Positions 3,901 through 54,419 of a stretch of 64,000 nucleotides of DNA are shown piece after piece. The notes beneath the pieces are model-generated. The model worked only from the letters and a program-made list of their open reading frames with translations, did no database searches and had not been told where the DNA came from. The position numbers were made by a program, and so were the translations under genes. This DNA comes from Spirogloea muscicola (Eukaryota; Streptophyta; Zygnematophyceae; Spirogloeales; Spirogloeaceae). The stretch spans positions 934,646 through 998,645 of the forward strand of contig WELB01000001.1 in the NCBI GenBank assembly GCA_009602725.1. The letters run 5' to 3'. Positions within the stretch are counted from its first letter, which is position 1, and the number at the start of each line of letters is the position of its first letter.

Positions 3901-5684
3901 GAAAGTGCAGTTTCACAATGTACAGGTACCCAATATGCTCCTTTGACTTTTCATTGCCAGGCGTTACCTCCATCTCAGTAGATGTTCACAAGTATGGCCT
4001 TGGCCCAAAGGGTACTTCCACTGTGCTCTACCGAAATCATGAACTCCGACGGGTTGGTTGCCTGCTTCTCTGATGAGATTTCACGGCTTGTGCATACCAC
4101 TTCGAATTGCACTGCAGGTTGTGCAATGCACTGATAGATATCAATTTTTGGTCTTGTTGAATTATGTTCCCTGGATGGTGCAGACACTGAGTATCTTGCA
4201 CTCAGCCCCGTTGACTCCCTTAATGTCTGCTCTTTGACAACCGCTGACAACCACTGACTGGTCTTTGAAATGATTTGCTCTGTTGACATGCTTTATATTG
4301 TGGACCGATCAACATCAGCACCAATTTGTAGCTGGTGAGTACACAAAGACCTGCTTCATACACTACATTTGTGCGTCCTGTTCAAGTTGCTAGTCTTCAT
4401 GGCACTCATGCGACTCTTGTGAGCATGTGCAGTCACAGAGTGGTCAGGGGGCCTGTATGTATCACCATCTGCAGCTGGAAGTCGCCCTGGAGGCCTCATT
4501 GCCGGAGCTTGGGCTGCCATGCTTGCCATTGGTGAAAACGGTCAGCCTCCGCCTTCTTGACTTTTGTAGCTCTTGAGCCTAGTCTGATTGCTGGGCGCCA
4601 GATAAGGATGACCTGGTCAACCATGGATATTGTTACTTCTACTTCACCAACATGCTCAAGAGCAGATACTTGCTTTGATATCATAACATGCAGCATTCGG
4701 ATATTCACCTTGCAGGTTACATGAAAGCCACGAAACAACTCATGGAGGCCTCACGGAGAATTGCAGAAGGGTACCCTAATGCTACTCACCAGGCTCTTAG
4801 AAGCTTCCATCTGTGATTGAGAAGAGGCTGGAGGCATCATGCTGATGTTTGCAGGAGTTGAGAGAAACAACTTGATCTGAGCAGCTTGTAGCTGATCTCT
4901 AGCAGCAAAGCCTCCATCAGCCTTGCTAATGGCCTTTTGAAATGACCAGAAGCAAGGTGACCTCTTTGAACCTGGCAGGATAGGGAAAATTGAAGGCCTT
5001 CAGGTGCTGGGCCGACCAGACATGACTGTGGTTGCTTTTGCATCCATGGATGCGGACATTTTCATGATCAACGACATGATGTCCGCAAAGGGTTGGAGTC
5101 TCAACGCACTGCAACGGCCCAGCAGGTACTTCCTTGTTGCCCCCTGCTTATTATCTCGCGCATTACATTTACTCAAGAGCAGAAGTTGGCGCCTGCTGGG
5201 GCTTGCACACAACAAAGAACAAACAACCTCACTGTTAAGTGCTTCTTTCTGAGGAGGATAAGCACTCATAGACCTCTTTGTACTTCTCTGTGGGTACAGC
5301 CTGCACATATGTGTTACCCTACAGCATGTGGATATTGTTGACGAGTTTCTGGAGGACTTGACCTCATCCGTCAAGAGTGTAAGTAGAGTACCACATCTGT
5401 CCCTGTCAAGAGTTTATCTAGCACTAGATTATCCAGCTTTTTGCAGAGCCTCATATCAAACATTGTCAGACCTTGTAGTGTTGCTAATCGTGTTGCTGCT
5501 TTTGAGTTTCTGCCGTATGGTCTAGCTTCAGCACACAACTAACTATTGCTCTTCTTGTCGATAGGTGAAAGCAAGCCCCGAAGCTATCAAGGACGGCATG
5601 GCTCCTATTTACGGTGCAGCTGCAAGGATGCCACACAGGGGTGCTGTGCGTGACCTTCTGATTGCTTACTTAGATTCAAGCTAG
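972..5684 (+). CDS. DPL1: Sphingosine-1-phosphate lyase (plant DPL1 type), multi-exon
   Basis: PLP-dependent ER-membrane enzyme that cleaves long-chain base 1-phosphates into a fatty aldehyde and phosphoethanolamine, the exit step of sphingolipid breakdown. Exons in order give an N-terminal membrane segment (1209-1319), the [12 protein letters not shown] block (about 1700-1743), [14 protein letters not shown] (about 1950), [19 protein letters not shown] (about 2690-2745), [20 protein letters not shown] (about 2803-2862), [15 protein letters not shown] (about 3393-3437) and [19 protein letters not shown], with the PLP lysine codon at 3990-3992. [16 protein letters not shown] and [14 protein letters not shown] follow. 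The order and spacing match the full plant protein. The chosen start is ATG at 972: a 22-bp coding exon (972-993) joined to 1125 restores frame through a glycine/alanine-rich leader, but it needs a GC-AG intron. The stop is TAG at 5682-5684. The family assignment is certain; the exact first exon is inferred. Confidence 0.93.
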
Positions 5685-14855: not shown

Positions 14856-14929
14856 GTACCTGTGACTTGGCGGCGAACGCTTTTGGATCAGACCTTGTAG
14901 GTAAACCACCCACAGCGCCAAGAGAAATC

Positions 14930-15400
14930 CCATAGACGGTAGGGGCTGGGAAAGGCCAGCCCAAAAAGACTGGACAAGGTCCAGGTAGCCAAAGATAATT
15001 TCGTGTATTTGAAACAAACATAGGCCAATGGCCAAGTACAAAGGCAAGCAAGCACATCTAAATATCTACATAACCTACAGCAGGTTGACCCGCTCAAAAT
15101 CCACGGGTCAAAACATAAAGGTCGCTAACCGATGCATGAATACTAGATGTCAGGTACGAAGCCCTTCTGTCACCAACTAAAAGAAGAAGAAGGCTCGCCC
15201 AGCTTTCTGATGCAAGGCATTAGCCTGAGCTCGCTGCAAACAGGCCGAAACTCGACGTCGCAAGAGCGACAAATATGCAGCTGGCAAGCCCATTTCAGCC
15301 GGAAACACATCTGCACGTCGTGTGTAGCCTAGATTGGCAATGTTTTGGAGGAGGATTATTCCGGCCAAAGGGAGCCCGGAATAAAGAAAACCCACACAGC
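14930..15400 (-). mobile_element. Non-LTR retroelement fragment (dispersed repeat, copy 2)
   Basis: From about 14990 to 15360 this copy aligns with 51840-52230, including the shared landmark GGCCAAGTACAAAGGCAAGC, a GACCCGCTCA...CCACGGGTC block and the ATGTCAG...AAGCCCTTCTG stretch. On the minus strand it encodes IANLGYTRRADVFPAEMGLP, then a basic helix with CLQRAQANALHQKAGRA. It begins with one copy of the hairpin module (14942-14962). It is a terminal fragment; no reverse transcriptase or endonuclease is visible. Confidence 0.6.
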
Positions 15401-15419: not shown

Positions 15420-16060
15420 GAAGGAAGAAGAAAAAGTGCTCGCCCATAGAGAAGGGGGGCTAGCAAAGCCAGCCCAGAAAGAATGGAAGGAAGCTCCGCA
15501 GAAGGAAGCTCAGTGCCCGCGAGTGAGCAGCAGCAATTCCGAGTAACTCGCAGCTGGGAAAGAAGCACTCTGTCGAGACCCAGAGGCAGCAGCCATAGCG
15601 CGGCCGGCTCGTGTGTGGACTGCCTGAGGAGTGAGCTGAAGGGGGCAGGGGCTGTGAATGGCCAGCCCAGAAAGAGCTTTTGACAACGTTCGGATAAGTC
15701 CGACGGCGCCATAGAAAGGGCTCGCCCATAGAGAGGGCTCGCCCATGCGCCACATGGCTGTGCAAGAAAGAGAGGAAGAGACTGAAGGGGAGCTTAGTAA
15801 CCCCGAGCCAGCACCGCAAGTGGGAGTATACTTGCAGCTGGAAAGGAGAGGAAGACTCTTCCAGTAGAGGGCGATGGCTGGGGTTGGCCAGTTCAAAAAA
15901 AGAATGAACACAATTTGGCATCCCAACGAGACCCAGAAGTAGCAGCCAGAGCGCGGCCGACCTGGACTCCGACATGCGGCTGCTCAACAGAAGAAGTGGC
16001 TCTGCCAATGGGCGGAAGGGCTGTGAGAAGCCAGCCCGAAAGAAGTGACAAGGTTCGAAG
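15420..16060 (+). repeat. Cluster of hairpin repeat modules
   Basis: Several copies of the GGGCTGG...CCAGCCC hairpin module occur here: 15457-15475, about 15648-15668, a degenerate copy at about 15885, and about 16018-16040. Each is preceded or followed by variants of CTCGCCCATAGAGA and by a tail of AAAGAATG type. At 15690-15745 the CTCGCCCATAGAGA block is itself locally repeated. No protein is supported. Confidence 0.6.
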
Positions 16061-16261
16061 GGGCCAGACTACGAAGGCGCCAGAAGCGCTATCTCAGAAC
16101 CAATGTAGGACGAACCACTCAATAAGTACGAGTGAGGAGCCTCACATCCGCCAGACTAGCTGCCGGAAAGCATTTCCCCTGACAAAAGCCAGAGGCTGCA
16201 GAGAGAGCACGGCCAGCACGCAGGTGTCAGGCGTGGGCCATGGACCGGTAAAGGAAAATGG

Positions 16262-16530
16262 TTAGTTGCATGCTGTAGACTTGGCTATCGAGCCAGCGGC
16301 GTTGAAGTCAGCCTGCTCACCTCGCCTGCGGGACACAGCGCTCCGCGCAAGCCTGACAAGCAGGTCGAGCCACTGGGACCCAAGAGCCCCGTGCACATCC
16401 ACGGCGAGGGGCACGAACCCGTCCGCAGCTGGGTGGTCTGCGTGTTTTGCCGCCTTGCAGCGTACGGCGTTCGCCGCTGCATGGCTGGCCCTCGAGGCAG
16501 AAAGCCCCGAATTGGAGCGATCCACCACAT
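16262..16530 (-). mobile_element. LINE-like C-terminal domain fragment
   Basis: The minus strand encodes FVPLAVDVHGALGSQWLDLL followed by VRLARSAVSRRRGEQADFN. The same domain is found on the plus strand at 16660-16800 and 27655-27800, and degraded on the minus strand near 53880-53990. This motif is typical of the last domain of non-LTR retrotransposon polyproteins in plants, algae and fungi. The fragment is terminated and isolated. Confidence 0.6.
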
Positions 16531-16639
16531 CAGAAGGAAAGTGCAGAGGTCACTGAGTGCTTCGTGGCTACTCAGTCAGCGCTTTTTCAAGCGCTACTCA
16601 ATTCACAGTGTGCTTTGAAGCTTTCTCTCCCACTTCTTC

Positions 16640-17040
16640 TCTTTTCTCCGACCACCCGGTGTTTCCCCCTGGCTGTGGACGTGCACGGGGCCCTCGGGTT
16701 TCTCTGGCTCGACCTGCTGGCCAGGCTTGCGCGGCGCGCTGTGTCCCGCAGGCGCGGTGAGCCGACGGACTTCAACATCGCTGGGTCGTGGGCGCAAGTC
16801 TACCGTATGAGATTGTCTGTATCCCTTCTGCTGGCCAGGCTTGCGCGGCGCGCTGTGTCCCGTAGGCACGGCGAGCCGGCTGACTTCAACGCCGCTGGCT
16901 CGTGGGCTCAGGTATGGGAGTGCCACTTCTTCAGCGGTCCATGGCCCATGCTCTGCATCTGCGAGCTGGCCGTGCTCTCGCTGCGGCCTCCGGCTTTCGT
17001 CAGGGGGATAGTTTCCCGGCAGCTAGTCTGTCGGATCTGA
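16640..17040 (+). mobile_element. LINE-like C-terminal domain with internal 114-bp duplication
   Basis: The plus strand encodes FPLAVDVHGALGFLWLDLL, ARLARRAVSRRRGEPTDFN and GSWAQVYRMRLSVSL, a LINE terminal domain. The segment starting TGCTGGCCAGGCTTGCGCGG at 16715 is repeated from 16829, a direct tandem duplication with a period of 114 bp (38 codons) that keeps the frame. The frame closes at 17040. The orientation is opposite to the neighbouring fragment at 16262-16530, so at least two insertions or a rearrangement are involved. Confidence 0.6.
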
Positions 17041-17149
17041 GGCTACTCACCCGTACCTACTGAGTGATCCATCCTCCCCCTGTTCTGACATAGCATCTTC
17101 CGGCCCCTTTGTAGCTGCTAATCGCTTGTAGGCCCCTCCACACCTTTCT

Positions 17150-17320
17150 CAAGTCTGTTTGGGCTGGCTTTTCGCAGCCCTTGCCCCCATTGGGAGTGCC
17201 ACTTCTTCTTCTTCTTCTTGTTTAGTCTGCACTCGACTCTGCCTGAACAATGTATTGGCTTGAATTGGCCTCCCTTTCAATTCATGCGCCCCGCGCGCCT
17301 TCTCTCTCTTCTTGTACTGC
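17150..17320 (+). repeat. Element 3' tail with hairpin module
   Basis: This stretch contains an inverted copy of the hairpin module (GGGCTGGCTTTTCGCAGCCC, about 17159-17178). A conserved block follows that includes GAACAATGTATTGGCTTGAA and CGCGCGCCTTCTCTCTC. The block recurs at about 17773-17840, 28048-28115, diverged at about 35820-35880, and inverted at about 53585-53645. Because it repeatedly follows the LINE-like terminal domain, I infer that it is part of the element's 3' untranslated tail. Confidence 0.55.
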
Positions 17321-25538: not shown

Positions 25539-27056
25539 CAACGGTCAGGCGCGGATGGTCGCGGAGAGGAGACCTCAAGCGGCAGTCTTGCGCAGCAGCT
25601 GAAGGGCCGAGATTGGAGTGGTTGCCAGGCGGTTGACCCTGATTGCTTTGAGCCCACTGTTGCAGTCGCCAGCCTCTGTGGCACAGTCAAATCTTGCAAC
25701 ATGCACAGTTGCCTGCCTTGCTGGCAATGGAGGTCATTTGTTTGCAGCATTGCTGCATTGCTACATGGCTGGCTGAGCACCATAGATGTGCTGCAAATCT
25801 TCACAACAACGAAATCTTGTTCAGGATCATTTCAGTCACCTAGAAGATTCGTAGCAGCTTCTAGCATCCCCTATGCCTGTCAAAAGCGTCCGAACCGCGG
25901 ATGAGTTTGCTGCATAACAAAAGGTTCCTATGGACCTTTGGCGCTCTTAGATGGTGTGAACCAGCTAATATAACCGCTGCTTTCAGACCTGTGTGGAAGT
26001 GCAGGCGGCCTATGATATCATTGGGTGGATTGGGTGGACGTTTGCTTCTTCTAATTCATGGTCTCTCATCTATTTCTGCATTGGGAATCTGACAAGCTTC
26101 CCTGCTGTTGCCAGAAACGGCAGAGCTGGTCCTCGAAGGTTGTTGAGAGGATGTCTGAAAGTCTCACAGTCGTGTCGGATCGGTGTATATGATCTCACAA
26201 CAAGTGCTGAACAAGCCACTTCCTTTTGACTGTAGCTGACGTTTTATCTTTTACGCCTTGCCAAGACACCCTCTTTCTGGAAAATTGTTGAGACCGAGAT
26301 TGTGTGAGACTCTGACGTTTACACCTGACGGAGGTAAGCGGACAAGCATTGGCGGTTGAGGCCTACTTGTTAAGACCCTCAAGCAGACGCAGATCTGGGC
26401 AAAGACAGGCTGTCACTTGCCAGATCGTCTCAAGCTCTGCTGAGTTCCGCTGCCATTCCTACTCGCCGAATTATTTTCGGATTTCTGGGGGGACCTCTCA
26501 GCCACTCTCGCCTTCAGAAGAGCATTTTCTTTGCTTTGATTGTGGCCTGCTGCCGTCACTTGCCAACATTGCCGGCTTGTAGCAAACACCTCTGCAACGC
26601 CCCCCACGACTGCTTCTGTGTTTCCAGCTGGCCTGTCCCGCTCGGCCACTCACTGGAGCGGCAATTCGGCTGTCACACTGGCCAGCAGGCACTCACGGCA
26701 CAAGTTTGGTGGTGCTGGCGGCGCCCTCCTTTGCCCTGGAATCAAATAGAAGTGCGCGCCCATAGAGGAGAGGGGCTGGGAAAGGCCAGCCCATTTAACA
26801 AATTTAGTAAGTGTTAGGCAGGTGGTAAGCTGAGTCACTCATAGAAGTCTAGTTCAGTGTGGGGCGTAAGCTTATATTATCAGCAGTGCAGCTTTCTGAT
26901 TCTGGACAGTGCTGCCTGTGACTGAGAATGCCTTGCCAGTTCCAAGATGTCGAGTTAGATCAATGCGTCTCATGTTACTCCAGAAGTTGATTCTATGTAC
27001 TTAATTATGCCCTGCACAGTAGCCTCAACGAAGAGCCTCCACACGACATTATCTAC
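25539..27056. other. Gene-poor stretch with one hairpin module
   Basis: No gene is recognised in these 1.5 kb; short open frames on both strands lack homology or coding character. One hairpin module lies at 26772-26792 in a CGCCCATAGAGGAGAGGGGCTGG context, about 1.2 kb downstream of the NDUFA2 stop. Confidence 0.5.
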
Positions 27057-27489: not shown

Positions 27490-28260
27490 CAACAAAGAAA
27501 AGCGCGGCCGAATTGACTGGTGGCTGGGAGAAGCCAGCCCAAAAGGAATGGACAACAAAGTACGTCGTTCATTCTTCTCTCTGGGCTGGCCAATCACAGC
27601 CATCGCCCTCTACTGGAAGAGTCTCTTTCTCGCACGCTGACCATCCGCCGGCCGACGAGTTCTTCCCGCTGGCTATCGACACACACGGGGCGTTGGGTGC
27701 TCGGTGGCTCGAACTGCTCCACCAGCTTGCCCGTCACGCCGTCGCTCGCCGCTTCCATGGGGAGCCGGTGGACTTTCCTGCAGCCGGGTCGCTCGTTCAG
27801 GTGTATCGCATGCGCCTGGCCGTCTCGTGCAGAGGTCAATGGCCCGTGCGCTGCACCTGCGTGCCGGCCGAGCCCTCGCTGCTGCCTCTGGCTCTGGCCA
27901 GGGGACGTCCTTCCAGGAACATAGCCTCTCTGACCTGCGACTGCTTAGCAGGGGTTACTGAGTAGTTAGTAGCTGCTTTGTTTCTTCTTGTGCGCTTCTT
28001 TCTTAGTGCTTCGCCTTAGTGCTTCGCCTGGCCCACTTCTTCTTGGCTGAACAATGTATTGGCTTGAATTGGCCTAGCTGTAATCTCATGCGCACCGCGC
28101 GCCTTCTCTCTCTTCTTGGGCTTCTTGTACTCTGCTCATTCTTTTTTGGGCTGGCTGTTCCAGCCCCTATCCTCAATGGGCGAGCTCTTTCTCTTTCTCG
28201 CACCGCGCGCCTTCTCTCTCTTTCTCACAGCCATCGCTCACAATGGAAAAAGAAAGGTAA
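27490..28260 (+). mobile_element. LINE-like terminal fragment with tail and hairpin modules
   Basis: This is the best-preserved plus-strand copy. It starts with a GCGCGGCC...ACTGGTGGCTGGGAGAAGCC block (hairpin at 27522-27540) and an inverted hairpin at about 27583-27602. Then comes the terminal domain FFPLAIDTHGALGARWLELL, HQLARHAVARRFHGEPVDF and SLVQVYRMRLAVSC, closing at about 27960. The tail block with GAACAATGTATTGGCTTGAA follows at about 28048, and a further hairpin at 28148-28166 (GGGCTGG CTGTT CCAGCCC). No reverse transcriptase is present upstream, so it is a 5'-truncated or internally deleted copy. Confidence 0.62.
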
Positions 28261-29116
28261 AAGGCCTTTTGCTTGTTCCTGACATGAAATGGAGGCTCAC
28301 GTGTACCTGAATCGACAACATCCTGACATGCGCACAAGAGACAAATACGTGCGATATCACACGCTTAGGACTAGAGGTTACTGAGCGTCCCCTGGATGAT
28401 GTCTTCGTCCTAGTCCTTCGCACTCCGGCTCCTTCAGACCTTGTCCATTCCTTTGGGCTGGACTTTCCCAGCCACCAGTCAATCTGGCCGCGCTTTCCTC
28501 TTAGGAGTAAGGAAAATTAGGAGTAAAGTGTACAAGAGTACTCGCCCGTCGACGATAGGACCTCACGGCGCGCCCGCCGAGGTCGTGGGAGTCGTCAGCG
28601 CCATGGCGGCTGCCTTGCTCCTCTCCGCGCCTCCAGAGCAGAAGCTCGGGGAGCTCGCCGGAGCCTCGCGGGCGAGCTGAGCCGCCACCAGTGGCTGCTG
28701 CCGTTGCCAAAGGCCTCATGCCGATCAGTCTTGCCGGCGACGCTGAAAGCAGCACCACTGACTGGCTAAGCCGCGCGATGCCGAGCCGGCGCGCTCGAGC
28801 TTAGCGGCCCGTCCATGGCCGCGGCCTAGCGGCGCCGTGGCGCTGGCCTGGCTGCGGTGCACCGCCAGGAGGCCTCCATGGAGCGCCTCCGGAAGATATG
28901 TGAGCTCTTGCGCCACACCTCAACGATGTCACTACAGCATTCTCGTAAAGCATTGGATCCAAGAATTGCTCCCGGTTCGCCAATCACGCTACCTGCTCGC
29001 ATCACAAAGCTATCTCAGAAGGTGCAAGAGCTCAGATGGCGGTGATACCAGCGGCCCTGAGCTGCAGGATGCCGCAGGCTGATGATTCAAGGCCTTGCTC
29101 GTGGATTGCACCGCAG
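28261..29116. other. Region upstream of katanin p80
   Basis: An inverted copy of the hairpin block lies at about 28445-28500. From 28540 to 28900 the sequence is GC-rich, as at other gene starts. A short frame from ATG 28604 (MAAALLLSAPPEQKLGELAG...) ends in a stop without a usable donor, so I do not accept it as the katanin first exon. The real start of katanin p80 probably lies in this interval but cannot be fixed. Confidence 0.35.
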
Positions 29117-35219: not shown

Positions 35220-35628
35220 TGGCCCTTGCTGAGTGATGTCTTTCAGTGCCTTTCAGTGGCCCTTTGAGACCTTGTCACTCCTTCCCGGGCTGGGCTGCTC
35301 ACAGCCCTCGGCCCCATTAGGAGAGCCACGTTCGATTCTCGAGCTGACACCAACCGCGCAGCCCTCCATGAAAAGGCGGTTCTGGGCACCGGCAAATACA
35401 GCGACGGCGCGGCCATGGCGGCGGGGGTCCTGACCGCAAGCTGGTCGGGGTCGACGGCGGCGACGAGGCCGCAGGAGGGTCAGGCGAGGCCGCGGCGCCG
35501 ACCCCAGCGCCAGACCGGCAGCGCGCAGACGCGCAGCGCCTGCTGCAGCTCCACAGCGTCGGCGGGCGCGCCGCAGCGCNCTCCTCATATCCGCAGCAGC
35601 TCCGCCGTCGCCTCCTCCGCCGCCGCCT

Positions 35629-35661
<33 letters not shown>

Positions 35662-36070
35662 CCGCGGCGGCGTGCATGGCCATGGGGGGCGGCCTGCAGG
35701 CGGGGTAAGGACAGTGGCGGCTTCGCTGCGTGCCCAGTGGCGCGAGCATTGACCCACGTTCGAGCCCTTCTAGCATAGAATTTGCTCTTAGTTATCCCGT
35801 TCTTTGCAGTCGCTTCCACCCCAAGCACCGCATTGGCATTGTTTGGCCTCCCCTGTCAGGTCATGCGCACCCCGCGCCTCCTCATCTTTGCGCTGGTCTT
35901 CTACAGCCATAGCCTTCGCTTATAGAAACTGTCTATGGGGCCTTGTACCTGACCTCTCATTCTATTATGGCTGGCACCTCACAGCCCTCGCCCTCTTCTA
36001 CCGAGCTGCTAATTTTCCTCTTTTGGGCTGGTCTTCCACAGCCATCGCCACAGTAGGGTGAATGAGCTCT
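35220..36070. repeat. Diverged hairpin and tail repeats around a GC-rich island
   Basis: Inverted hairpin modules occur at about 35288-35305 (GGGCTGGGCTGCTCACAGCCC), 35965-35985 and 36026-36045. A diverged tail block (CGCATTGGCATTGTTTGGCC...CCCCGCGCCTCCTC) lies at about 35825-35885. Between them, 35415-35700 is a (GCC)n-rich island with a single n at 35580. Short Ala-rich frames there on both strands could be first exons, but none is supported by a downstream exon. Confidence 0.45.
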
Positions 36071-36702
36071 TTCCTTTCTTTACAAGCTCGTCCACCTTGA
36101 GAGCACCACTGATCCCTCTCAATTCCACAACCTCCTCTGCGCGCACTCGGCTGGTTTGCACATGTGCTAGCTACTTCAACTTGCCCCGGTTCTTACATGT
36201 GCTGCCTTCATTTAGTGGTCATTCTGACTCTTTGATGTTGTGTGCGTTGAGTATCTGTTCGTATGAATTTAACAGGTTGGATGAATTATGGAGGGACGTA
36301 TCATTATATAGCTGGTACTTGCTACTGTCAGGAGACGAGCAACGATCAACATATGACGTGCTGTCCATAAGACGAACGACTTGATCTCTTCATGCAGCAA
36401 GGGAGGATGAAGCTGCTGTAGTGTGTTACAACTCTAATCTTGACGCACGTCTATGAGGGGCTGCTGCTAGCGGAATGGAAAGAGAGAAGATGGCTTCCAG
36501 TGCATGTTGCTGTCCTACTGCAGCAGCACTTTGAGCGCAAGCTACAGTGAGAGCATGATGAGTTGCTTGAGATGAGCCAATTGCCATGATTGCCATAAAT
36601 CTGGCTAACAGCACAATTGGTGAGCACCAGTGGCAGCATGGCACAGTAACCAACATGAAGTAAACCTGCAGCAACAAGTTGTCGAAGTGCAGCCTAATCT
36701 CC
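36071..36702. other. Intergenic, no gene recognised
   Basis: This is a moderate-GC stretch downstream of the RHM stop codon. It presumably contains the RHM 3' UTR. I see no conserved frame, RNA gene or recognisable repeat in it. Confidence 0.4.
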
Positions 36703-43263: not shown

Positions 43264-43994
43264 ACTTACTCTAGCAAAGAGAGAGGTTGGCAAGTGGGAC
43301 TAAGCCAATAGGAAATAATGAGACGAGAGTGACGGTGCACAATGCACAAAATTGAAAGGGAGACAGAATCAGCCAATATATTTTGTTGGCAAAAGCTAGT
43401 GCAAAGAAAGGGGCTACACAAAGCAAAGCCCTTTGTCAAGGGAGGCTAAGGAGCAGTGCGATAGCCGGCTGTAGGCCGACTTCAGTATCACAAGTAAGCT
43501 CATATGGATCCAACAGGTCAACTACAAAGCGGCAGCTCGAAGAAACAGCACTTCCAATGTAAGGCAGTGGCATTGAGTGGCGAGCCCAAAGACTGTGCAA
43601 GCTTTGAGGGCCCATGCTCGGAGCGCAGGGCCTGGCAAGACAAGATGTACATGTTCTTCCGCCCTCTCCTGGAAGCGTCATTTCTCCGAAAGGCGGGAGA
43701 AGAGGCTGTGAAAGGCCAGGCCGGAAAGTGGCAAACGAGCAGGCAGGAACGCAGAGGATCGCACAGGCCACGTGAGGCCACTTGAGGAGGGAGGGCGGAG
43801 GCGTGGGGCAGGGGCCCGGCAAGTTATTGATGAGAAGCCGGGGAGAGGGAGGGCGGGCGGCGGGGAGGGGGGGGAGGCCCCCGGCAATCAGGGCAGCCAA
43901 GGGCTCCCCCCCCCCACTCGCGAAACCATCAGTGATCATTGCCCTCAGCGCGCACAGGCCAGGCCGCCGCCGCCGCCGCTGCCGCNGGCCGGCC
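43012..43994. repeat. Upstream region of the IDH gene: (GA)n and a hairpin module
   Basis: A perfect (GA)n microsatellite lies at about 43222-43259. A diverged hairpin module (GAGGCTGTGAAAGGCCAGGCC) is at about 43701-43721. A purine-rich, GC-rich stretch (43780-43990) with a single n at 43986 leads into the IDH start codon. No gene is recognised. Confidence 0.5.
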
Positions 43995-51839: not shown

Positions 51840-52230
51840 TTCGTGTACTGTATTCGAAAACAAACGAAGGCCAAACGACGGCCAAGTACAAAGGCAAGCA
51901 CATCTGAAGACCTGCATGACCTTCAGCAGATTGACCCGCTCAGTAACCACGGGTCGCTAATCGATGCCTGCATACCAGATGTCAGATACGAAGCCCTTCT
52001 GCCACCAGCTAGAGCTCGCCCAGCTTTCTGGTTGCAGTAGCATTAGCCTGAGCACGCTGCAAACAGGCCGAAACTCGTCAACGCAAGAACGACAGATATG
52101 CAGCTGGCAGGCCCATCTCAGCCGGAAACACATCTGCACGTGGTATGTAGCCGAGATTGGCAATATTCTGAAGGAGAGTGTGGAAACGAGGACCCAACAG
52201 CCAAAGATGTCTGCCGCTGGCAGGAGCTGA
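51840..52230 (-). mobile_element. Non-LTR retroelement fragment (dispersed repeat, copy 3)
   Basis: Aligns with 14990-15360 and, in part, with 1-225. The minus strand encodes NIANLGYIPRADVFPAEMGL and a basic helix interrupted by at least one stop, so it is a dead copy. It lies just downstream, in minus-strand order, of the Cys/His module at 52390-52890, consistent with one degraded element on this strand. Confidence 0.6.
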
Positions 52231-52389
52231 TCGCATTGGGGGTAATCGGAGTAACGCTGCAGCTTTCTTTATTCTGCACCGCCGACTGCGTGGCCAGCGA
52301 TGTGTGTCGATGCTGGACCTTTATACGCCTCCCTAACAACAACATCGACCAAGGCCCGTGGTCCTCCACCAGATTGCACGCCCACAATA

Positions 52390-52890
52390 TCAAGTGTGCG
52401 GCGATGATGACGTCTCTGGGCGTCCGTGGTGATAGGCATGACTGACTTCCAGGACCACACGGTAGCCGGCGTCGCGCATCAAGCCTGCCAGGGCATCGTG
52501 GAGGAGGTTGTGGATGTCCACCACTTCTGGTCCAGTGGGACATCTCAGCATGTGAGTGGCGAGCTCAGCACCCTCTGCACGGAAGCCACACTCACACTGG
52601 CGCACCTCAATCAGGCAGGTAGGTGGGAGGCCGAGGAAGAGTTGATGCAACGTCCAAAAGGCCTCGGAGCTGAAGCTGAAGGCGTTGGCGACAGCGTGTG
52701 AGGTGATCCAGTCGGTGGCACCAGGTGTGGCAAGAGAAGTAAGTCTTGCCAGGCTCCTTGGATTGTTCTGAATCTCTGGCAGCCTCCTCAACCTTCTGCG
52801 GCGCTCAACTTCCACTGCCGTAACCAGTCTGCACTGTGCCCTTCTATCAGAGGGGCGCTTCCCCTGGCCCCCTTCTCGTACTTTGTTCAT
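52390..52890 (-). mobile_element. LINE-like Cys/His-module fragment
   Basis: Minus-strand frame of 166 codons. It contains ATDWITSHAVANAFSFSSEA, LHQLFLGLPPTCLIEVRQ, a CECGF...H...C knuckle and then DIHNLLHDALAGLMRDAGYR. This Cys-x-Cys...His...Cys block followed by a helical H...AG..V segment is a recurring feature of the post-reverse-transcriptase region of non-LTR elements. It shows that the parent element had more protein than the terminal domain seen elsewhere. The reverse transcriptase itself is absent. Confidence 0.62.
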
Positions 52891-54310
52891 TCTTTTCTGG
52901 GCTGGCTTTTCCAGCCCCTATCCTCAATGGACGAGCCCTTTCTTCTTCTTCTATCAGAAGCTTGGGCGAGGTCTGAGAATGGCGTGAGTGGGGGTTGTAG
53001 AGAGGGGGAAAAAAAGGAAAAAACTTGCTCTCCCAAATGGGGGCAAGGGCTGTGAAAAGCCAGCCCGAAAAGAATCGACAGAGGTTCCAAGGGGCCACAA
53101 TGAATTTCTTTTACAGCCGCTCTTTCAATTTTAGAGGGAAGAGAGCCGATTGTTGATTCGCGGATGTTCCTCAGATCCGCTTGGAAGCGGAAGCAAGCGC
53201 GGCCAGATTGACTGGTGGCTGGGAGAGGCCAGCCCAAAAGGAATGGACAAGGACAGAAGAATCCTGGGTGCGAGACAAGAAGAAAGGGCTCGCCCATAGA
53301 GAAGAGGGGCTGGCAAAGCCAGCCCAAAAAAAGAATGGACAATGGCCAAAGACAGCAGCAAGGGGACTCAGTAACCTCTAGTCAGAAGATGCAAGTCGGA
53401 ATAGCTAGACGGCGGACAGACGTCGCCCTGACGGTAGCCGGAGGCCGCAGCCAAAGGCGGCCGGCGCTCAGGTAAACCGCGAAGGCACGGGACTGCTGCA
53501 AAGAGATAGCCAAACGCATCCGATAGACCTGAGCGAGGGACCCGGCCATTGAGGATAGGGGCTGGACAAGCCAGCCCAAAAAAGAGAGAGAAGGCGCGCG
53601 GGGCGCATGAATTGAAAGGGAGGCCAATTCAAGCCAATACATTGTTCAGGCAGAGTCGAGTGCAGACTAAAAAGACTGAACAAAGAACGAGAAGGGGGCC
53701 AGAGGAAGTGCTCGCCCATTGAGAATAGGGGCTGGAACAACCAGCCCGAAAAAGAATGAACAGAGTACGAGAAGGGGGCCAGGGGAAGCGCTAAGTAACA
53801 GAAACAAAGCTGCTACGAGACACTCAGTAACCCCTGCCAGAGGAAGCCAGAGCAGCCCGGCCACGTTAAAGCCAGGCTGCTCACCCTGTTGCCCGTGGCG
53901 GCGGGCCGCTGCGCGCCGCGCAAGGCGGTGAAGCAGGTCCAGCCACTTGGTGCCAAAAGGCGCCGTGGACGTCGACAGCCAGTGCGACAAATTGGAGAAG
54001 GGCTCGCCCATTGAGGATAGGGGCTGGAAAAGCCAGCCCAAAAATGAATGAACAAAGTACGAGAAGGGGGGCCAGAGGAAGCGCTAAGAAAACAAAGCAC
54101 ACAAAGAAAGAAAGCAAATTCGTCGCCCACCGGGTGGTCGGAGTATTTCCGTTCCTTTGCGCCACAAGGAACCTTCCTCCACATTGCGTACAGGGTCGTG
54201 GAGGCAAGGGAAGCGCATGGGAAGCAGAGAGGCGGTCTGGTGCCAGCAGCCCAGGAAGGCAGCTTGCGCCGAAAAGAGGGGCTAGCAAAGCCAGCCCAGA
54301 AAAGAATGAA
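52891..54310. repeat. Dense cluster of hairpin modules and an inverted LINE-like terminal domain
   Basis: At least eight hairpin modules occur within 1.4 kb: 52899-52917 (inverted), about 53048-53068, 53217-53235, 53307-53325 (perfect, GGGCTGGC AAA GCCAGCCC), 53558-53577, 53728-53747, 54021-54039 and 54279-54297. They alternate with a minus-strand tail block (about 53585-53645) and a degraded minus-strand terminal domain (ALAVDVHGAF..., about 53890-53995). This block forms the upstream flank of the cycloartenol synthase gene. Confidence 0.65.
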
Positions 54311-54346
54311 CAATATCCAAAGGCCACAAAAGAGGTGCCAAAAGAG

Positions 54347-54348
<2 letters not shown>

Positions 54349-54419
<71 letters not shown>
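54349..54419. repeat. (GA)n microsatellite upstream of cycloartenol synthase
   Basis: About 70 bp of almost uninterrupted GA dinucleotides end about 195 bp before the cycloartenol synthase start codon. GA tracts of this type can act as GAGA-type promoter elements in plants, but nothing in the sequence proves such a role here. Confidence 0.8.

Follow-up and report, generated by a model that had tools for sequence, protein, structure and literature searches.

A short hairpin with a GGCTGG and CCAGCC type of stem recurs throughout a 64,000-nt stretch of the Spirogloea muscicola genome (assembly GCA_009602725.1, contig WELB01000001.1, positions 934,646 to 998,645, the whole of which is referred to as the window), and is very probably a conserved 3'-terminal structure of several related long interspersed nuclear elements (LINEs) with a restriction-like endonuclease (RLE) resembling that of R2. 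When read in the sense orientation, with the T-rich flank upstream, the copies end alike in hairpin, spacer and tail, and in the sequence sampled the hairpin has a fixed place beyond the LINE stop codon, with ~30 nt between it and a shared 3' end whose tail is CTTTCTTC-like. The hairpin is probably the handle by which the RNA of an element is recognised by its own enzyme.

Hairpin position and LINE anatomy

The analysis was based on 324 kb of the 153-Mb genome, comprising the 64-kb window and loci picked partly for many hairpins or reverse transcriptase (loci L009-L028 are from one contig and were picked partly for hairpin richness), so that hairpin density in this sample is not representative. 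A total of 22 tblastn matches, the query included, reach the C-terminal end of the LINE frame, with a same-strand hairpin within 350 nt in 20 of them and within 170 nt in 19. Such cases in the window include the frame matches at 16122, 17060 and 27958, after which the hairpin follows at 62, 76 and 165 nt, respectively. Copies were assigned to families A, A3, B, C and D. The family A query shares about 52-75% identity with the frames joined to A3, B and C hairpins, for the most part in short pieces; coverage is best for family C in L015, where pieces of 16 to 562 amino acids have about 56-69% identity. These LINE families, with their diverged frames and changed loops and flanks, have retained the stem arms, and the spacing between arms and tail is similar among them.

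The common 3' end is best defined in families A (41 copies) and B (11 copies), in which the majority letters of the tail are N-CTTTCTTC and CCACTTCTTC, every letter being present in at least 63% of copies, with agreement down to about 30-45% beyond the tail. Families A3 (13 copies) and C (16 copies) have looser 3' ends, agreement being lost at a similar place. On the 5' side, similarity stops at differing points from copy to copy. Along the full-length element, found in L038, copy depth reaches 45 over the hairpin, decreases to 23 by the stop codon and is 7 some two hundred bases upstream, with a fall from 38 to 3 between L038 positions 5320 and 5330. Such a profile, in which the 3' end is constant and the 5' side is cut back to varying degrees (most clearly in family A), is typical of LINE insertions truncated at the 5' end. 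Upstream of the full-length element is a second LINE piece in inverted orientation (L038 1-816), 100% identical to positions 4377-5192 of that element.

The frame of the full-length element encodes a non-LTR (long terminal repeat) reverse transcriptase (RVT_1, E 8.4e-16), and its top PDB sequence matches are R2 proteins. A structure model of the C-terminal part matched the R2 linker and RLE best, with seven R2 entries ranked first by VIA-align and an R2 as the best Foldseek match (E 1.1e-3). The KX2KY catalytic motif is present as KELKY in L038 and KERKY in L015, with the variants KLRHY or KLQHY in L013, L024 and L025 and further divergence in L009 and at window 16280-16534. A CCHC knuckle has the spacing CX1CX12HX3C in L038 and L015, and is shorter by one residue in L013, L030 and window 52441-52758. 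Two N-terminal motifs look by eye like C2H2 zinc fingers, with Pfam E-values of 0.1-0.4, below the cut-off. Pfam gave no match for the 484-amino-acid C-terminal piece; another four LINE pieces yielded an RVT_1 match below threshold and one chance match.

Given this anatomy, we infer that the element's own protein would bind the 3' hairpin structure in the RNA and nick DNA, with copying beginning at the RNA 3' end (target-primed reverse transcription). Copying would mostly end early, leaving many insertions as 3' stumps with little beyond the hairpin, and insertions into older copies would produce the clusters seen in the window. An initial reading of the window made from sequence alone (the sequence-only reading) had offered a LINE 3' recognition structure as one of several options; its place and anatomy are borne out by the fixed site after LINE frames, the common 3' end and the ladder of 5' truncations, with recognition itself a probable function.

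Copy number and copies in the window

Perfect matches to GGGCTGG-N2..12-CCAGCCC number 8 in the window compared to a shuffle mean of 0.02, and 9,236 in the 153-Mb genome compared to 3 for a reversed-pattern control. An extended pattern with TGGG downstream occurs 6,640 times in forward and 6,593 times in reverse orientation (13,233 in all; control 5 and 3). A covariance model was built from 36 of the 43 copies in alignment A1, itself derived from 111 arm-pattern matches, reduced to 65 by flank rules and to 43 by removal of near-duplicates. The model identified 21 copies in the window at E<=3.3e-5, a number that rises to 23 with a limit of E<0.05, and 152 matches over the sample at E<=0.01, 150 of which were aligned. 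As the A1 copies were chosen by arm pattern, stem invariance is partly built in, a bias that the later model search loosens without removing.

All twelve well-kept copies listed in the sequence-only reading are present, and in both orientations as it had stated. Among the 22 places that it named, 21 are overlapped by the 23 model matches (43705 at E 0.041 only), and the remaining place, 35970, received no separate model match but fits the arm pattern. Two copies were added by the model, at 15846-15920 (E 3.3e-5) and 43538-43609 (E 0.013). The shared flanks it described hold for one group of copies (A/A3), others carrying different flanks, and had been quoted in antisense; on the sense strand the T-rich flank is upstream and the CTTTCTTC-like end downstream. 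A sense reading of the A-rich strand was rejected. The copies and LINE fragments in the window are as follows (coordinates, strand, description, evidence):

14920..14986, minus: LINE 3' end hairpin (model E 9e-12)
15428..15501, minus: A3-like hairpin with one G-U wobble, LINE 3' end (model match)
15625..15695, minus: degenerate hairpin (model E 1.2e-7)
15846..15920, minus: D-type hairpin, degenerate, absent from the earlier list (model E 3.3e-5)
15989..16060, minus: family B hairpin, LINE 3' end, 62 nt past a LINE frame match (model and tblastn)
16122..16534, minus: C-terminal fragment of a LINE frame, preceding the B hairpin at 15989-16060 (tblastn, 52-60% identity)
16663..17060, plus: C-terminal fragment of a LINE frame, preceding the B hairpin at 17136-17209 (tblastn, 67-75% identity)
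17136..17209, plus: family B hairpin and tail, LINE 3' end (model E 6e-15)
26744..26810, minus: A3-like hairpin, similarity stopping just upstream of the stem (model E 7e-9)
27493..27567, minus: family C hairpin (model match)
27560..27631, plus: family D hairpin (model E 5e-9)
27627..27958, plus: C-terminal LINE frame fragment, family A (tblastn, 84-91% identity)
28121..28195, plus: family A hairpin, LINE 3' end (model match and copy comparison)
28432..28501, plus: family C hairpin, LINE 3' end (model match)
35262..35336, plus: B-like hairpin (model E 5e-6)
35969..35986, plus: B/D-like hairpin, degenerate (arm pattern, no separate model call)
35999..36073, plus: D-like hairpin (model E 1.8e-7)
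43538..43609, minus: candidate copy, very degenerate, weak (model E 0.013)
43671..43746, minus: very degenerate copy, weak (model E 0.041)
52197..52758, minus: LINE frame fragment, knuckle and RLE region (tblastn, about 40-42% identity to the full-length element)
52855..52945, plus: family A copy of the LINE 3' end, 5'-truncated, with the hairpin at 52899-52917 and the tail CTTTCTTC (blast to L038; model E 3.9e-18)
53017..53092, minus: family B hairpin, LINE 3' end (model E 3e-15)
53189..53259, minus: family C hairpin, LINE 3' end (model E 3.5e-7)
53278..53351, minus: family A3 hairpin, LINE 3' end (model E 4.5e-17)
53530..53601, minus: family A hairpin, downstream part lost, another repeat in the preceding T-run (model match)
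53703..53837, minus: family A LINE 3' end, 5'-truncated (99% identity to L038)
53998..54091, minus: family A LINE 3' end, 5'-truncated (model match and copy comparison)
54252..54322, minus: A3-like hairpin, degenerate (model E 1.4e-7)

The last of these clusters is adjoined by a long (GA)n microsatellite at 54349-54410. The repeat in the T-run just before hairpin 53530-53601 is about 90 nt long with the sense end GCGCGCCTTCTCTCTC (window about 53583-53669, also near 28100), and looks like another 3'-anchored retroelement. Another short dispersed repeat, TTCGTGTATT(A/T)GAAA(C/G)AAA...TAGGCCAA.TGGC, is present at window about 14998-15032 and in L019, L021 and L025.

Stem conservation, insertion marks and alternative explanations

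The core pairs GGCTG/CAGCC are nearly invariant over 147 distinct aligned copies, and conservation of sequence and of fold are therefore not separable there. In the outer stem (GTTCATT with AATGGGC in family A) two-sided changes are present. A swap test on 106 distinct copies, from which 34 that fitted no family were excluded, gave mean energies for a copy's own partner versus shuffled partners of -8.6 vs -4.5 kcal/mol in A and -10.6 vs -5.6 kcal/mol in A3, with a weak difference in B (-6.5 vs -5.2 kcal/mol). For the two-stem structure, four of five covariation measures exceeded all 500 shuffles, mainly through the outer stem, in an alignment that was fitted to the model and in which related sequences alone can give such an excess. 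The stem-loop near the tail is predicted to form in the stretches folded; two A stretches and one A3 stretch from single 3' ends are more stable than most of their shuffled versions (z -3.7, -2.8 and -4.4). A D stretch with low folding energy (z -2.9) was disregarded because a neighbouring antisense copy forms its strongest helix. Rfam returned no match above the gathering threshold in the window, and two matches on L038 5100-5400 that are both far under their gathering scores.

Two copies carry candidate insertion marks. The copy at 52855..52945 is flanked by the 11-nt direct repeat CTTCTATCAGA, present at 52841-52851 and 52948-52958 and nowhere else in the window, and that at 53703..53837 by the 11-nt repeat GCCAGAGGAAG (53698-53708 and 53836-53846). 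The second case is less clear-cut, since GCCAGAGGAAG is part of the family A 3' untranslated region (3'UTR) and occurs again at 54071. The longest word shared by the flanks of 45 copies averages 6.6 nt compared to 5.6 (sd 0.22) for permuted flanks, an excess that is supportive and not strong. In copy C195 (L039-L040) the word GAAACAAA is repeated around the insertion, and the 5' junction of its full-length LINE has about 18 nt like the family C 3' end. Passages in PMC7650587, PMC12222951 and PMC10499050 describe end-to-end template jumping as a known trait of the R2 enzyme; the C195 junction resembles the result of such a jump between LINE families and, as one case, is a lead only. At L047/L048 (C66) and L053/L054 (C453), two LINE copies have a common left flank and different right flanks, which suggests rearrangement or an assembly joining at the element.

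Several results weigh against a conserved, recognised 3' structure. Only a single cell, in the inner stem, shows two-sided change with the pair kept among the 147 distinct copies, so that the paired stem changes claimed by the sequence-only reading are not borne out, and RNAalifold gave no consensus fold for alignment A2. The outer stem gave a null result in family C (-5.4 vs -5.2 kcal/mol), in which the upstream strand pairs better with the downstream strand of A than with its own; being supported in A/A3 only, it was rejected as a general feature. One 3'UTR stretch each of B and C shows no gain in stability over its shuffled versions (z 0.2 and -0.7). The largest of 300 flank permutations (6.8) is above the observed 6.6. 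Two of the 22 C-terminal frame matches have no nearby hairpin (L024 at 7050 and L025 at 2675, the latter probably interrupted by a younger insertion starting 47 nt on), and one has its hairpin 328 nt away. The structure model has low confidence (mean pLDDT 54), and the spacing CX2-3CX7-8HX4C given for RLE LINEs in a passage of PMC5678591 was not found in the knuckles compared. The sequence-only reading had itself named what would refute it, namely copies always at one place in one longer, ordinary element without compensatory change; this is largely what was observed, as copies occupy one place in longer elements and compensatory change in the core is almost nil, with the qualification that several LINE families, not one, carry the hairpin.

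The stem may instead have been kept through shared descent and recent spread alone, with no recognition function. Near-nil covariation in the core, the many young copies (28 of 88 at 99-100%) and the arm-pattern picking of the first alignment agree with this, but the same arms, similarly spaced from the tail, are retained by families that share about 52-75% frame identity and differ in loops and flanks, and we consider it quite improbable. An inverted repeat acting as DNA, either as an insertion or recombination hot spot or as an autonomous unit like a miniature inverted-repeat transposable element, is highly improbable. Copies do cluster, with 35 neighbour pairs within 100 nt among 150 of the 152 model matches compared to a mean of 18.1 and a maximum of 29 in 1000 within-locus permutations, and several insertions sit in or beside older hairpins. 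Nested insertion can explain this clustering, however, and an abundant repeat is often hit by chance; a recombination hot spot, as proposed from the sequence, is not demonstrated by it. The proposal of a mobile unit of its own is not supported, as the family A copies have no 5' boundary at the hairpin and reach variably into LINE sequence.

It is also unlikely that the hairpin is at the same time the tail of short interspersed nuclear elements (SINEs) borrowing the LINE machinery, many of the short copies then being SINEs and not truncated LINEs. Short copies are numerous, passages of PMC3747384 describe a green-algal SINE/LINE pair with common 3' ends (SINEX/RandI), and an unrelated-looking context, CATGAACACCTGTATGCATCTGGCTGG..., recurs around GGCTGG..CAGCC in two copies (L009 and L020), possibly a further element family. 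The 5' ends of family A are nevertheless scattered and not fixed, Rfam gave no match above threshold, and ARAGORN finds no tRNA gene in the window or 18 loci, which is a weak test for decayed SINE heads; the SINE partner suggested from the sequence was not seen in a limited search that covered about 324 kb of the 153 Mb. Gypsy-type elements were rejected as carriers, hairpins being at differing distances from them or absent in the 9 places fetched out of 150 scored RVT_1 places. Most of these 9 look by eye, from their motifs, like LTR elements. RVT_1 matches are found on many contigs, several with equal scores and long open frames, and by eye the fetched places look Gypsy-like with a chromodomain-like end. 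Frames resembling cycloartenol synthase and UDP-rhamnose synthase were also recognised, and would fit a green alga. A search for L1-type companions gave no Exo_endo_phos_2 match, and no zf-RVT match in a search whose control also matched nothing.

The 3'-terminal structure of R2-like LINEs remains our preferred interpretation. A tentative and rather doubtful extension is that the families form a cross-mobilising network, in which enzymes of diverged families would act on each other's RNAs, hence the shared, near-invariant hairpin, and template jumps would fuse the 3' end of one family with the 5' end of another.

Comparison with known LINE and SINE 3' ends

Hairpins at LINE and SINE 3' ends are already well described, the present case offering a large, tidy and well-kept set of copies. 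The hairpin accounts for a very common repeat of this genome and is a clean marker of LINE 3' ends, and its natural loop and flank variants on a constant stem could help to show which features of the template matter to an R2-like reverse transcriptase. A literature search identified no R2-like LINE of green algae carrying this kind of 3' hairpin among the matches listed, which is no proof of absence. The HERO clade also consists of RLE-type LINEs, many of which are not site-specific according to a passage of PMC4640811, and is a possible affiliation of the present elements.

As in the R2 elements of Bombyx (R2Bm) and birds (R2Tg), a single frame combines a reverse transcriptase with a C-terminal part modelled closest to the R2 linker and RLE, a hairpin is present in the 3'UTR, and copies are 5'-truncated. 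In contrast to R2, which inserts in one 28S rDNA (ribosomal DNA) site, the present copies are dispersed and flanks differ among the copies read; the weak N-terminal zinc-finger signal, the knuckle spacing and the 3' tail CTTTCTTC also differ. Stringent-type LINEs (UnaL2, ZfL2-1/2) similarly have a short stem-loop near the 3' end and, after it, a brief repeat-like tail, and their endonuclease is of another type; the present stem-loop is predicted from sequence and has no Rfam match above threshold. Maize L1/SINE2 and Chlamydomonas SINEX/RandI likewise have a common 3' hairpin or 3' sequence, as described in parts of PMC3747384. These plant and green-algal ends differ in belonging to L1 or RandI clades with other tails, and compensatory changes are reported in the maize stems and not found in the core stem here. 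A further parallel is Zepp in Coccomyxa, for which passages of PMC8226300 describe nested arrays of 3' ends.
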